Below are positions 2,440 to 28,193 of a stretch of 64,000 nt of DNA, one piece after another (the stretch's first letter is position 1; each line of letters opens with the position of its first letter). The position numbers and the translations under genes are program-made. Origin of the DNA: a virus. The stretch spans positions 1 through 64,000 of the IMG/VR virus record IMGVR_UViG_3300036820_000014, one strand, 5' to 3'. Under the pieces are notes generated by a model. The model was not told the origin of the DNA. It did no database searches and worked only from the letters and a program-made list of their open reading frames with translations.

Positions 2440-2799
2440 TCACGACCAGATCATGCCGAGCAGTCCGGCGGCGCCGGCGATACCGGGCCATGCCCAGACC
2501 GTCTCGGTCCAGGTGGGAACGAAGCCCGAAGCGTGGGCAAGAAGAGCGCCGGCGAGTGAGAGCCAAAGAGAAACGCACCACTGACAGTTGATGAACTTCT
2601 CGGGCCAACTCGGTTCGAGGTGTACCGACACCTTGGCATCGATCGGCCGAGAGTCCTCTTTACGAAGCGTCGGCCTCGGTTGCCATGGCCAGTGGCGATT
2701 GATCGCCACGCGTAACGGCAGCGTGATGTCATCACCAACAATGAGCCGGGTAACCCGCATCACTGCAAGAACTACTAGCGCGAGACCAATCGCCGTCAC
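2440..2799 (-). CDS. Small membrane protein, DUF1360-like
   Basis: 119 residues with a hydrophobic N-terminus (about 1-20), a Cys-containing segment CQWCVSLWLSLAG (about 73-85) and a hydrophobic C-terminus, so probably two or three membrane segments. The short W-C spacing within a membrane helix resembles DUF1360 proteins of phages and Gram-positive bacteria, whose function is unknown. It lies between a tiny basic gene and the portal gene in the same direction. Confidence 0.6.
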   Translation of the reverse strand: MTAIGLALVVLAVMRVTRLIVGDDITLPLRVAINRHWPWQPRPTLRKEDSRPIDAKVSVHLEPSWPEKFINCQWCVSLWLSLAGALLAHASGFVPTWTETVWAWPGIAGAAGLLGMIWS

Positions 2800-2863
2800 G
2801 GTGAACTCGCCCTCATCGGGTCGAATGGTACTGACGCAGAAACGGATTCGTCCGGATGCAGTG

Positions 2864-2986
2864 TCAGCGGGTCATGATCTTGAGCTTCTTAACGCCCTTG
2901 GCCCTCGAGGACGAACCTTTCCGAGCCGTCTTGTGACCCGGCGCACTCTTGACATTCGCTGTCGGACGAGCTGGACGCTTTGCCAT
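2864..2986 (-). CDS. Tiny lysine/arginine-rich protein
   Basis: 40 codons beginning MAKRPARPTANVKSAPGHK; about one residue in three is Lys or Arg. It sits directly downstream of the tRNA-Ser(TGA) gene. The frame stays open through the tRNAs, but only this part has protein-like composition. No strong Shine-Dalgarno is seen. A small DNA- or RNA-binding protein is possible; the function is not recognised. Confidence 0.4.
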   Translation of the reverse strand: MAKRPARPTANVKSAPGHKTARKGSSSRAKGVKKLKIMTR

Positions 2987-3006
2987 CAGGCGGAATGATA
3001 GATGCG

Positions 3007-3092
3007 CGGAAGGCCGAGGACTTGAACCCCAGGGCTGTGGACCCCAATCCGTTTTCAAGACGGTTCCGGCGCGCCTGTCCGGTTGACCTTCC
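3007..3092 (-). tRNA. tRNA-Ser (anticodon TGA, reads UCA)
   Basis: The reverse strand folds into a full class II tRNA. The acceptor is GGAAGGT/GCCTTCC, the D-stem is CCGG/CCGG, the anticodon loop is CTTGAAA with TGA at the centre, there is a GGG/CCC variable arm, and the T-arm TGGGG-TTCAAGT-CCTCG has the canonical T-loop. The discriminator base is G and the CCA end is not encoded. The long variable arm confirms serine. It lies 2 nt from a second serine tRNA. Confidence 0.9.
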
Positions 3093-3094
3093 AG

Positions 3095-3175
3095 CGGAGG
3101 GCTGAGGTCTCGATCCCCACGGTGACCCGCGAGCTGGTTAGCAACCAGTCCCGTCTCCTCGACGGTTAACCCTCC
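3095..3175 (-). tRNA. tRNA-Ser (anticodon GCT, reads AGC/AGU)
   Basis: Acceptor GGAGGGT/GCCCTCC, D-stem CCGT/ACGG, anticodon loop TTGCTAA with GCT, a short variable arm (GCGG-GTCA-CCGT) and a T-arm TGGGG/CCTCA. The T-loop reads ATCGAGA, so the usual T54 is A, and the length of about 81 nt is short for a serine tRNA. Both points make it slightly degenerate. No CCA is encoded. With the neighbouring TGA tRNA it forms a two-gene serine cluster between portal and terminase genes. Confidence 0.82.
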
Positions 3176-3225
3176 AGGTTCAGGAAGGCGAGGAACTTCG
3201 GGGGACGGTCGGAGATTAGGTCTGG

Positions 3226-23158: not shown

Positions 23159-23533
23159 TTACGGCCGGGCGAGCCATCCCGCTTCTCTTGCTTCGATCGG
23201 ATGCTGGTTATGGATCCAGTCATGGCACTCGAGGCAGATGTGCAAGAGGTTGGTCAGGAGATTCTTGCCCCCGTCAGAGACGGGAAGGACGTGATGGCGG
23301 TGCTCGCCCCAGTAGTGGCACTTGGCCGAGACGAGGATCTCGCACACACCGTGCGACCTCTCGAGCAACGCCGGCGTGATGGCGTCCAACTCGTCGAGGA
23401 AGGCCCGTTTCTCCGGACTGATCCGACGCAGCCCTTTCCGACGCGGCCGAAGCGGAGCGCGCTTTAAGCGGGTTTCCGAACGCTTCATCTCGGTCCGTTT
23501 CATCTGAACCGGATGCCGGCTTTCACCGCTCAT
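23159..23533 (-). CDS. HNH endonuclease
   Basis: 124 residues. HNH core: HRHHVLPVSDGGKNLLTNLLH (the first H and N/H residues) with the zinc pairs C-x-n-C (CEILVSAKC, about 64) and ICLECHDWIHNQH (about 98). The N-terminal 40 residues are strongly basic, useful for DNA binding. The ATG overlaps the upstream stop by 11 nt. It may act in packaging or as a homing enzyme. Confidence 0.85.
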   Translation of the reverse strand: MSGESRHPVQMKRTEMKRSETRLKRAPLRPRRKGLRRISPEKRAFLDELDAITPALLERSHGVCEILVSAKCHYWGEHRHHVLPVSDGGKNLLTNLLHICLECHDWIHNQHPIEAREAGWLARP

Positions 23534-24497: not shown

Positions 24498-24926
24498 TCA
24501 CCATCGTCGTCGTTCAGGGTCATCTTCCTCGCCGACTGGGTCGACCCCTACCAACCTGAACTGGCCTTTCGCTTCTTGCGTATCGCGCTCGCGCTTGTCT
24601 GCCACCTTGCCAACCATCTTGTCGAGCCGCGTGCCGGTGTCTTTGCGATCATCGATCATCACGATCACCGCATCAAACTCCTCGATCTGATGTATTCCAA
24701 GCAGCAAGCCGTCCTCTTTCGAGTAGACGTTGGCATAGCTGGTCTTGCGCTGGCGGATCCGCATCAGACAGTCCTCGTAGCCGTCTGTCTGGAAGACGTG
24801 CGGTGCTATGTCCACCGAGTCCTCCAGCCCGTTGCCCGTCTTCTTGATGACGATCGACTGGCCGAGAATCGGTAGCCCGTTGTGCTCGCCGAGGTCGTTG
24901 TCTTCGTCAGTGTTTGCCACGGTCAT
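24498..24926 (-). CDS. Hypothetical replication-region protein
   Basis: 142 residues from an ATG preceded by AGAGAGGAACC. Middle part: GQSIVIKKTGNGLEDSVDIA and FDAVIVMIDDRKDTG; the ends are acidic. It does not match a family I know. It sits beside the methyltransferase genes and may be a DNA-binding adaptor. Confidence 0.5.
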   Translation of the reverse strand: MTVANTDEDNDLGEHNGLPILGQSIVIKKTGNGLEDSVDIAPHVFQTDGYEDCLMRIRQRKTSYANVYSKEDGLLLGIHQIEEFDAVIVMIDDRKDTGTRLDKMVGKVADKRERDTQEAKGQFRLVGVDPVGEEDDPERRRW

Positions 24927-26644
24927 TTGGTTCCTCTCTGTTGTTGGATCATGCGTCGGCCTATCCACTCTGCGACCGGAACGCAAACGGCATTGCCGAG
25001 CGTGCGGTATCGAGCTGAGTCGTTCAGAGTCGAGGTCCAGTCATCGGGGAATCCCTGGAGTCGTTCCACCTCCAGGGGCGTTAATCGTCGGACAGCGAGA
25101 CTCCCCTGTGCTGATTCGTTTTCACCGCTCGTGGATCGCCCCACCGCTTGAACCTCTGATAATGCTTGTCGCACAGGCCCAAGCCCTTCTGAGGCTTGCC
25201 ACATACCGTGCAAAGTGCACGTCCGCAATGCTCCTTCATGTGACAGGAACGACAAATACGTATCAAGTTGGTCGGCGAGTTGTTCAGGTGGTCGCCGTCC
25301 CGGTGGTGGACGTCCCTCGCTGAGGATCTCCCGCACTTCGAGCATGGTCCCGGTGGACAGATGGCCCGCGCTCGTCTGTGCGTTGTGGACCAGTTCGGGG
25401 TCTTGCTCAGGTATCGCCCAGTGAACCCCATCGCCATGCACTTCTGATGGCAGAACTTCCGGCGTTCGAAGTGGAACAAGGACTCCAAGACACCATTCGA
25501 CAAACGCTTCCTCTCCAACCTCTTCCCGCAGGACTCGCAGTACCGCTCCGGATCTGGCTTCCTCGGCATCGGCACGCGAATCACTGTAACCACCGGGTGA
25601 GGCTAGGACAGCAGTCGCGGTCCTAGCCGTGTGCCCGATCGCATCGAGGGTGTCGGTGCGGTCAGTCTCTTCCCATCGCTCGCAATCATCGGAGTCATGC
25701 GCCCGTTGCGCCTTGCGGTAGGCCACGACACGAACGCCTCGCTCGGTCGTCTTTGCTCCGTCGGTAGCCGAGATGGTCGGTGCCAGGTCGGTCGGAGTGG
25801 CCACCAGATCGGCTCCTTGCCCTGACTCTGGGTAGATCGAGAAGGCGACCAGGTGATGGGGTTCTTTTGCCTCATGGGCCGCAATTGGCGCGATCTGCTC
25901 CACCTCGTCCCACCATTCGTGGCCCGTCTCGGACGACACCGATACGCGCTCGTGCACGGCTACTCGGGCGCTGATGGCTGCTCCAGATTGGCCGACTGCT
26001 CCAGCGCTTGCCGCAAGCGTCCCGGCAACTCGCGACCCCGTCTCCCTGCTCGGCGGAGAATCCCCATCGCAGCTCTCGGGCTCAAAAAGTACCGAGAGTG
26101 CACCGGCTCTGTCTCCAAGACATCCGACAATGAAGACACGGCGGCGGCGCTGGGCCACTCCGAAGAATTGAGCGTCAAGCACCCGGTAGGCCCACCCATA
26201 CCCGAGTTCGGCCAGGGTTCCGAGAACCGTTGCCATGTCAGCTCCAGGACAGCATCCGGCACACTCGGCGTCATCGCATCCGGTGGGCTTGTGGCCCGAC
26301 GAAAGCAGTCCAGGGACGTTCTCGATGAGAACCCAACGGGGAGCAAGCGCCTCACTGACACGTACGAACTCGGTGAAAAGTCCGGATCGCTCGCCAGCCA
26401 GTCCCTTACGACGTCCAGCCACACTGACGTCTTGGCACGGGAATCCTCCGCAGAGAACATCGACTCTTGGGGCATCGGGACCTATCTCTTTCACATCATC
26501 GAAGCGGAGCATCTCCGGCCAGTGGAACTCCAGAACTTTGCGCGCGTCGGGATCGATCTCGCACTGCCAGGCACACGTCATCCCCGCTCGTTCGAGCCCC
26601 AGTCCTATGCCTTCGATCCCACTGAAGAGGGAACCGAATCTCAC
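24923..26644 (-). CDS. C5-cytosine DNA methyltransferase interrupted by an HNH frame
   Basis: 573 codons. The C5-methylase motifs appear in order: I (MRFGSLFSGIEGIGLG), IV with the catalytic Cys in GGFPCQDVSVAG (about 72), VI (LIENVPGLLSS), VIII (AQRRRRVFIVG), IX (RRLTPLEVERLQGFPDDW) and X (YRTLGNAV). Between VIII and IX lies about 170 codons unlike a target-recognition domain; this segment overlaps a second frame that encodes an HNH nuclease. Without it the enzyme would be about 400 residues, normal for phage members. Whether the long frame makes active enzyme, or the insert is removed as an intron, is not known. Confidence 0.85.
   Translation of the reverse strand: MRFGSLFSGIEGIGLGLERAGMTCAWQCEIDPDARKVLEFHWPEMLRFDDVKEIGPDAPRVDVLCGGFPCQDVSVAGRRKGLAGERSGLFTEFVRVSEALAPRWVLIENVPGLLSSGHKPTGCDDAECAGCCPGADMATVLGTLAELGYGWAYRVLDAQFFGVAQRRRRVFIVGCLGDRAGALSVLFEPESCDGDSPPSRETGSRVAGTLAASAGAVGQSGAAISARVAVHERVSVSSETGHEWWDEVEQIAPIAAHEAKEPHHLVAFSIYPESGQGADLVATPTDLAPTISATDGAKTTERGVRVVAYRKAQRAHDSDDCERWEETDRTDTLDAIGHTARTATAVLASPGGYSDSRADAEEARSGAVLRVLREEVGEEAFVEWCLGVLVPLRTPEVLPSEVHGDGVHWAIPEQDPELVHNAQTSAGHLSTGTMLEVREILSEGRPPPGRRPPEQLADQLDTYLSFLSHEGALRTCTLHGMWQASEGLGPVRQALSEVQAVGRSTSGENESAQGSLAVRRLTPLEVERLQGFPDDWTSTLNDSARYRTLGNAVCVPVAEWIGRRMIQQQRGTK
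25081..25569 (-). CDS. HNH endonuclease nested out of frame in the methyltransferase gene
   Basis: 162 residues from ATG 25569. It begins with basic sequence and CESCGKRLERKRL, has a second Cys pair (CHQKC, about 40), then the HNH core CSKCGRSSARDVHHRDGDHLNN and RICRSCHMKEH (about 75-112), and ends with CTVCGKPQKG and CDKHYQRF. The frame differs from that of the host methylase and its stop falls within the codons of motif IX (RRLTP). This is the layout of a homing-type endonuclease inserted in a conserved gene. Confidence 0.8.
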   Translation of the reverse strand: MPRKPDPERYCESCGKRLERKRLSNGVLESLFHFERRKFCHQKCMAMGFTGRYLSKTPNWSTTHRRARAICPPGPCSKCGRSSARDVHHRDGDHLNNSPTNLIRICRSCHMKEHCGRALCTVCGKPQKGLGLCDKHYQRFKRWGDPRAVKTNQHRGVSLSDD

Positions 26645-26874
26645 GCGTGGGCCCTGCCCCTGCAGGTGGCGAAGTGAGCGAAGCGACGTGGGCCTTCATG
26701 GACCTCGTCCTTTTTCAGGATCCTCACCATTGGCACATCGGAGTCTGGATCGATCATCACGACCTTGGCCTTGTCGCCTTTGTCTGGCCACGGGTTGACG
26801 GGCATGCGCTTGCCCTTCTCAGTCACACACCACACGATCGCCACGCCGCAACGATTGCATTTGGTTGTCTTCAC
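26641..26874 (-). CDS. Zinc-ribbon protein
   Basis: 77 residues. MKTTKCNRCGVAIVW, then KRMPVNPWPDK and a late CRGRAH, a one-site zinc fold found beside many phage replication genes. The end overlaps the methyltransferase GTG (GTGA). Function unknown. Confidence 0.65.
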   Translation of the reverse strand: MKTTKCNRCGVAIVWCVTEKGKRMPVNPWPDKGDKAKVVMIDPDSDVPMVRILKKDEVHEGPRRFAHFATCRGRAHA

Positions 26875-28193
26875 GCCGTCTCCTCCTCTACGCCACGTCC
26901 TAACTCGAGCAACCGGCCTGCGGGAGACGCTGGCGTCGTGTCCTCGACAGACAGGAACATCCCAACCCGCTCGCGTGCCAGGTCGGCGTTCCGCCCATCG
27001 ATGTCAATCCCCACGGCGGTACGACCGTGACCAGTGGCCACCATGAGCGTCGTGCCACTGCCGGCGAATGGATCCAAGACGCACCCAGGGCGGTAGTCGT
27101 CGTGAGAGCAGGCTGTCCAACCGAGGGTGGTGGCGACTCGGTCCATGGTTGGCTTTCCAGCTGCACCCGTTCCGTTCGTGCGTCCATCGGGTTCTTTCAG
27201 GTCACGTCGCTGCCCAGTGGTCCCACCTGACCCGCGGACGTAAGAGACATCGACCATCCGCCTCGACGGCTCCCCACACACCCGACAAACACGTTCCGGG
27301 CACATCGACTTGATAAAGGGCACACACAGGTCGGCCGGCCAGGTCGCATAGTGCGATCCCTTGTAGGGCGATGTCGGGATCACCAGGTAGGACGGGAACT
27401 CCTGGTCTTCGTCCATCTCGATCCAGTCGAGGGGTGGCGCGCCCGCCTCGTTGATCGGTGAATTGCGAAATCGCTCTCCCTTGTCGTTCAGCGACACGTC
27501 CTTGCGCTCGTGGCGGTTGTCATCGGGGAACTTGTGCGGCGTCCGCACCGCGTCCTGGTCGTAGTAACGCGTCCGGCTCTTGCACGCCACGGTCAGATAG
27601 CTCGTAGCGGGTCTGAACTTGTCCCCCAGCGCGCCGACGGGTGGGTTCGGACGATTCCACGCCACCAGATTCCTGATGCGCCAGGGGTCGATGGTGCGCT
27701 CTGGACGGAGCAGGTTGCGCCCGTAGGCGAGCGACCAGGCGAAGAGGGTGGGGATGCCGGTGAGGGACTTGTCAAGGGGCCAGCCGAGGCGAGCCTTCGT
27801 CATTCGCCCCGGGCCCGTGCGCTCCATCGTGGACTCGACGCGGCGGGCATAGGCGCTGCCCGTGAACGCGGGCTGAGCGGCTCGCAGGCCGTTGTCGGTG
27901 TAGTCCCCGCCCGCCCCGCCGCTTCCGCTGTAGGTGTCGCCGAGCTCGAACACCAGCGAACCGTGCGGCGCGAGCACGCGGTCACAGGCCTCCACCACGT
28001 CGAGCAAGTCGTCGAGGAAGCCAGCCGGCGTCGGCTCCGATCCGATCTCCTTGGATTTCTCGGGATGATCGGGTGGTAGGTAACTCCGCAGAGCAAGAAA
28101 CGGAGGAGAACTCAGTATCAGGTCGACGGATTCGTCTGGCAACGAAGCCAGGCCATCGAGGACGTCGCCGACGATGAACCGCGCGGTGCTCAC
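26871..28193 (-). CDS. DNA methyltransferase, beta class (N4-cytosine or N6-adenine)
   Basis: 440 residues. Motif IV comes first, VDLILSSPPFLALRSYL (about 22-38), and motif I late, VLDPFAGSGTTLMVA (about 367-381), which is the beta order. SPPF favours N4-cytosine but N6-adenine is possible. CRVCGEP (about 303) adds a zinc-like site. Start is GTG, coupled by GTGA to the HerA-like gene. It is one of three DNA-modifying enzymes in this operon. Confidence 0.85.
   Translation of the reverse strand: MSTARFIVGDVLDGLASLPDESVDLILSSPPFLALRSYLPPDHPEKSKEIGSEPTPAGFLDDLLDVVEACDRVLAPHGSLVFELGDTYSGSGGAGGDYTDNGLRAAQPAFTGSAYARRVESTMERTGPGRMTKARLGWPLDKSLTGIPTLFAWSLAYGRNLLRPERTIDPWRIRNLVAWNRPNPPVGALGDKFRPATSYLTVACKSRTRYYDQDAVRTPHKFPDDNRHERKDVSLNDKGERFRNSPINEAGAPPLDWIEMDEDQEFPSYLVIPTSPYKGSHYATWPADLCVPFIKSMCPERVCRVCGEPSRRMVDVSYVRGSGGTTGQRRDLKEPDGRTNGTGAAGKPTMDRVATTLGWTACSHDDYRPGCVLDPFAGSGTTLMVATGHGRTAVGIDIDGRNADLARERVGMFLSVEDTTPASPAGRLLELGRGVEEETA

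Follow-up and report, generated by a model that had tools for sequence, protein, structure and literature searches.

The usual view of homing endonuclease genes is that they gain entry to coding sequences chiefly by way of self-splicing introns or inteins, and the HNH genes of phages, both I-HmuI-like and free-standing, lie in introns or between genes and share no codons with a host gene. In mycobacteriophage methylases, the ShiLan domain (first described in PMC9957025) carries an HNH open reading frame (ORF) out of frame with a host gene that remains free of stops; no sign of splicing was seen, homing has been proposed, and the HNH gene was reported to lack a ribosome-binding site (PMC11855218; Genes 2025;16:178). 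In this paper we analyze a 64,000-nucleotide stretch of viral DNA (IMG/VR record IMGVR_UViG_3300036820_000014, positions 1 to 64,000; hereafter the window), in which an HNH endonuclease ORF lies wholly within a gene for a C5-cytosine DNA methyltransferase (MTase). A comparison of this locus with its relatives indicates that it is very probably a frame-sharing homing element, carried in the C5 MTase gene without an intron or an intein.

A reading of the window from its letters alone (the sequence-only reading) had proposed that the MTase frame stays open for 573 codons while a second frame within it encodes a complete HNH protein with three zinc-type Cys groups, and both parts of this proposal hold. 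The MTase ORF is uninterrupted and matches PF00145 in two stretches (E 2.3e-62), and the nested ORF begins 1051 nucleotides downstream (26644-25593, remainder 1), that is, in the +1 frame. The three Cys groups, together with H96 H97, N105 N109, H118 and H122, are invariant or nearly so in an alignment of 28 relatives, and this conserved His/Asn/His core with zinc Cys pairs marks the product as a putative HNH endonuclease. The protein matches PHROG 1271 (E 1e-11) and has many relatives at 49-65% identity; its Pfam HNH_3 score falls below the Pfam cut-off. An HNH frame devoid of homologues, a case the sequence-only reading had considered, was not what we found, and the notion of a chance ORF is ruled out by these homologues and by the synonymous shuffles described below. 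The AlphaFold model of the HNH protein is good (pLDDT 87). A Foldseek search with it gave no match at E below 0.001, and VIA-align returned modest Z scores, 4.0 with I-HmuI and 5.3 with Gme HNH, among unrelated rows. The ORF opens upstream of the start used by the family, and alignment with relatives places the probable start at GTG 25575 or ATG 25569. Its TGA stop is made from MTase codons for VRRLT, the start of motif IX, as had been proposed. A structure model of the window MTase with its insert is mostly confident for the N-terminal core (motifs I-VIII) and for the motif IX-X end, and of low confidence for the greater part of the insert and for the linker (residues 194-362).

Relatives were searched first with the HNH protein and then with an HNH alignment, and every distinct HNH scoring at least 85 bits was checked for nesting. 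They were found in viral contigs, in Staphylococcus phage CUB-EPI_14 and in bacterial genome contigs (Dokdonella, a Peptococcaceae metagenome-assembled genome (MAG), an Acidobacteriia MAG, Virgibacillus, Treponema and Akkermansia). At least 76 distinct copies, the window included, are nested, the HNH being +1 relative to the host frame in every case, and the MTase frame is free of stops across the HNH in 76 of 76; because it is open in each of them, the element would be translated through. The hosts are C5 MTases, with PF00145 present in all 21 tested by Pfam; the other hosts were assigned by motifs and some are fragments, and three (L101, L104 and L107; relatives bear L numbers), possibly split MTases, have no more than an end resembling motif X. 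In complete loci MTase motifs stand on both sides of the insert. In L072 (1459-4680) the nested HNH frame is shortened by a stop and the MTase frame is still open.

Both frames are maintained. When the HNH protein was held fixed, synonymous codons were shuffled within each sequence and MTase-frame stops were counted, approximately 5.0 stops were expected in the window and none was observed (P = 0.0016); in 15 loci (the window and 14 relatives) 3.7-11 stops were expected and none occurred in any (P 0 to 0.007 each). Four relatives of comparable score (L099, L100, L102 and L106) are not nested and hold 9-23 stops in the same frame; the open MTase frame is therefore no by-product of the HNH sequence, and its interpretation as a mere shadow of the HNH is ruled out. 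Among closely related copies, differences at HNH codon positions 1, 2 and 3 number 281, 390 and 737, and because position 3 varies most, selection acts chiefly on the HNH protein. The peptide read in the MTase frame is itself conserved beyond expectation under a null with a fixed HNH protein and no stops allowed (z 12.8; for the unused frame, whose excess measures residual ancestry, z is 6.2; 27 copies at less than 62% identity), and a Trp in it is kept in 23 of 27 copies while the overlapping HNH residue changes. By these comparisons the MTase frame is maintained without stops, and some of its residues also seem to be of importance, a small effect. Searches with the MTase-frame peptide of the window gave no matches, an alignment of such peptides was too variable for scanning, and the peptide of a single relative matched only loci that also carry the HNH.

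The segment has arrived in genes that otherwise lack it. Of the 80 MTases with the most similar C-terminal parts, 77 do not have it, and related MTases holding the segment without an HNH frame, another case the sequence-only reading had raised, did not occur. Uninserted alleles were found, as its proposed alignment sought, for instance in Staphylococcus phages IME-SA4 and SpP (IME-SA4 DNA is 83% identical in the aligned pieces), while a base-exact empty site for the window copy was not found; the nearest MTase from a sequenced phage has 54% identity to the window MTase across 47% of the protein. L003 and L004 show the unit passing between diverged hosts: the element is approximately 97% identical in DNA from about 41 nucleotides before the HNH ATG to motif IX, and the MTase DNA outside it is approximately 60% identical on the left, with a sharp edge, and approximately 60% again on the right. 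Identities of host core and HNH are weakly correlated (Spearman 0.30), and on an MTase-core tree the presence of the element changes state at least 19 times, compared with a mean of 34.9 with shuffled labels, a rough count in that the uninserted sample was picked by similarity.

The element also occupies more than one position. In the window and most other copies it lies before motif IX, which bears out the proposal of an insertion just ahead of that motif, and the HNH stop is formed by host motif-IX codons in 36 of 76 copies (counted by eye). A second clear position is between motifs IX and X (L017, L078, L079, L083, L087, L091-L093, L096), and more copies are found near motif X (L088, L095, L097, L098, L103 and others). 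With the L003/L004 transfer and the patchy distribution, these positions make it well supported that the element is an insertion that moves, as first suggested. In L099 a free-standing HNH relative (2692-3219) stands directly behind an uninserted C5 MTase (838-2655), an arrangement that is a possible forerunner state.

In six HNH-bearing MTases a host-frame stop separates two Leu codons of motif IX, and the MTase beyond it is intact: L013:1883, L015:4660 and L066:4630 (CTT TAG CTT GAR), L065:4723 (CTT TGA CTT GAG), L076:2695 (CTT TAA C CTT GAG) and L085:4477 (CTT TAA A CTC GAA). A hop from CTT to the next CTT or CTC would restore RRLTPLEC in all six, while read-through or a +1 shift would fit only some. 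Because a pattern scan of all viral contigs gave only one further MTase with this stop (L227:10970, without an HNH), the stop goes with the HNH. It could be a recoding signal, a footprint of repair or decay.

We propose that a C5 MTase gene harbours, in its +1 frame, a unit of approximately 0.55 kb coding for a zinc-finger HNH endonuclease, with HNH codons chosen so that the MTase frame would stay without a stop. The MTase would be translated straight through, gaining about 160 residues in a flexible linker between motifs VIII and IX; this insert-encoded peptide would be tolerated as a linker, and the MTase may still work. Neither an intron nor an intein would be needed, because the coding of the HNH gene lets the MTase frame read through. 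The HNH protein would be made from the same messenger RNA via internal initiation, and presumably cuts MTase alleles without the insert near motif IX, whereupon repair would copy the element in.

Internal initiation is the simple reading of the HNH starts. An ATG stands at one fixed position in most copies, AGGAG- or GGAGG-like sequences precede the start in L001, L008, L063 and L114, and in the group inserted between motifs IX and X the GGAG before the ATG belongs to host codons for DYLEL. An in-frame stop lies just 8-20 codons ahead of a conserved Pro in many copies, which makes a distant upstream frameshift an unlikely way into the HNH frame.

Several observations weigh against a frame-sharing homing element. 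There is no clear Shine-Dalgarno sequence before the HNH start of the window, base-exact insert ends are seen for one pair only (L003/L004), the extra conservation of the MTase frame is small and in part residual ancestry, and expression and cutting are steps that we infer. The stop in motif IX of six relatives further means that the host gene may in some cases be broken or recoded. That stop, just behind the insert, also fits the idea that inserted MTases are dead and that the open frame reflects only slow decay, and phage MTases are often dispensable, as has been said of ShiLan gp65 (PMC11855218). The frame is open, however, in copies at 35-60% HNH identity, which is unexpected under neutrality, and complete loci retain intact motifs IX and X after the insert, and we consider a dead MTase very unlikely. 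It is a shade harder still to believe that the segment is the original target-recognition domain of the MTase, overprinted later by the HNH rather than newly arrived. It does lie between motifs VIII and IX, where target-recognition sequence is located, and shows some conservation at the level of residues, such as the Trp above; but most related MTases are without it, it is found at other positions as well (after motif IX and near motif X), a free-standing HNH relative stands beside an uninserted MTase, and the HNH is the better conserved frame.

HNH nucleases are often found in group I introns, and the mobility of the element would suit a self-splicing intron (group I or II) in which the open MTase frame is coincidental. 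The check for intron folds advised by the sequence-only reading was negative, no Rfam family reaching its gathering threshold in the window or ten relatives, so that neither kind of intron was recognized there; the MTase frame is moreover stop-free in every nested copy, and the HNH ORF takes up nearly the whole unit, which leaves no space for a ribozyme. We regard an intron as extremely improbable. Least credible of all is an unusual intein, with the MTase-frame peptide excising itself from the MTase. The insert is in frame and would be translated, like an intein, and one related MTase, L072, does contain a true intein-like insert; yet in 21 hosts Pfam found no domain besides PF00145, and thus no Hint domain, the insert is of low confidence in the structure model, its MTase-frame residues vary with the HNH codons, and the alignment has no conserved Cys/Ser/Thr start or Asn end. 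The intein-like insert of L072 lies beside the nested HNH, directly after the motif IV catalytic Cys (GGTPC/FPAGALV...HN/CQSYS).

Coordinates of the nested genes, in the window and in relatives that carry an HNH family with Myb/SANT-like repeats, are given in the table. Elsewhere in the window, another HNH gene (23159-23533 (-), PHROG 740) and an N6/N4-type DNA methylase (26871-28193 (-), PF01555) are found nearby. A further ORF of 171 codons (25960-26475 (-)) lies in the +1 frame of the N-terminal half of the MTase, and relatives carry +1 peptides resembling it (..YFLSPRA..GILRRA.RRG..LP..L..AL). It has only a weak match to PHROG 16143 and no tblastn match in phages, and its openness does not exceed chance when the MTase is held fixed (P 0.095).

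Table. Features of the nested locus in the window, and SANT-type nested HNH ORFs in relatives
Feature	Position	Strand	Remarks
C5-cytosine DNA MTase ORF	24923..26644	(-)	573 codons, GTG start, open through insert; PF00145, PHROG 116
MTase motifs I-VIII, 5' of linker and insert	26120..26644	(-)	SGIEG, GGFPCQ, ENVPG, AQRRRRVF in translation
Insert in MTase frame, stop-free linker peptide	25085..25591	(-)	~165 residues; left end approximate
MTase motif IX (RRLTPLEVERLQGF), directly behind insert	25049..25090	(-)	Overlaps HNH stop; from translation and alignment
Putative HNH endonuclease ORF, +1 frame of MTase	25081..25593	(-)	170 codons, stop TGA 25081-25083; PHROG 1271, homologues
First zinc-type Cys group of HNH (C19, C22, C48, C52)	25438..25539	(-)	Invariant in 28 relatives
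HNH core and second Cys group (C84, C87, H96 H97, N105 N109, C114 C117, H118 H122)	25228..25344	(-)	Invariant columns; pLDDT ~90
Third Cys group of HNH (C128, C131, C141)	25171..25212	(-)	Nearly invariant
SANT-type nested HNH	L009:2187-2957		
SANT-type nested HNH	L010:2406-3062		
SANT-type nested HNH	L011:2640-3248		
SANT-type nested HNH	L216:2391-3047		
SANT-type nested HNH	L217:3001-3615		
SANT-type nested HNH	L218:3001-3591		
SANT-type nested HNH	L224:1680-2297		

A family of many copies shows a route into coding sequence that uses neither intron nor intein, the nuclease being written so that the other frame stays open, and with it the odd published case of ShiLan becomes a broad, testable class. 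Long same-strand gene overlaps can here be traced as they move between genes, and annotators should be aware that a second protein may hide in MTase genes. We lean slightly towards a wider view, in which frame sharing would be a general third way beside introns and inteins, used by at least four nuclease types to enter phage DNA-MTase genes (zinc-finger HNH in +1, SANT-like HNH in +2, the ShiLan HNH and the Pacc40 AP2/HNH), and in which the peptide of the present family would be selected as a harmless linker.

The SANT-type HNHs follow immediately on motif VIII of C5 MTases and are read in the +2 frame, with the host frame open. They share with the present family the host gene family and the open host frame, but the domain make-up is unrelated and a profile comparison is weak (prob 7.7); their HNH core resembles that of ShiLan. 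L009-L011 carry both elements, and in L216 the SANT-type HNH frame holds a stop and the host frame is intact. In Mycobacterium phage Constella the SANT-type HNH is gp105, annotated in the record inside gp104, and NihilNomen has the allele without the insert. Right of the nested HNH, the MTases of Constella (L224:1180-2979) and NihilNomen (L225:1180-2297) share 96% identity; left of it they differ strongly, a pattern that looks like joint replacement of the left part and the insert. Each of the two has the C-terminal part of its MTase in a separate ORF.

I-HmuI and the free-standing phage HNH genes have the HNH core in common with the present family. The insertion in Pacc40 gp60 (PMC11855218) is likewise an out-of-frame nuclease-like ORF in a methylase gene, with free-standing relatives beside uninserted methylases, but it differs in its AP2/HNH-like protein, its helicase-methylase host gene and its +2 frame. 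The closest parallel is with ShiLan. Both systems have a stop-free host frame in which no intron or intein was found, a patchy distribution and a poorly structured host-frame peptide, and the window copy, like ShiLan, has no evident ribosome-binding site. An out-of-frame HNH, a stop-free host frame and uninserted alleles, by which the ShiLan way of working may be recognized, are all found in the present family. The two are nevertheless not the same element: ShiLan gp65, the gene compared here, is an N6_N4-type methylase (PF01555) with its HNH ORF in the +2 frame, whereas the present family is in the +1 frame of C5 MTases, and the HNHs are only remotely similar. ShiLan has been reported in mycobacteriophages, whereas the 76 distinct copies of the present family come from phages and bacteria, and several have a ribosome-binding site. 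Judged by these features, the present family would work like the ShiLan element and is a different element; the principle is already published for ShiLan, and the family described here is a much larger, separate case of it.
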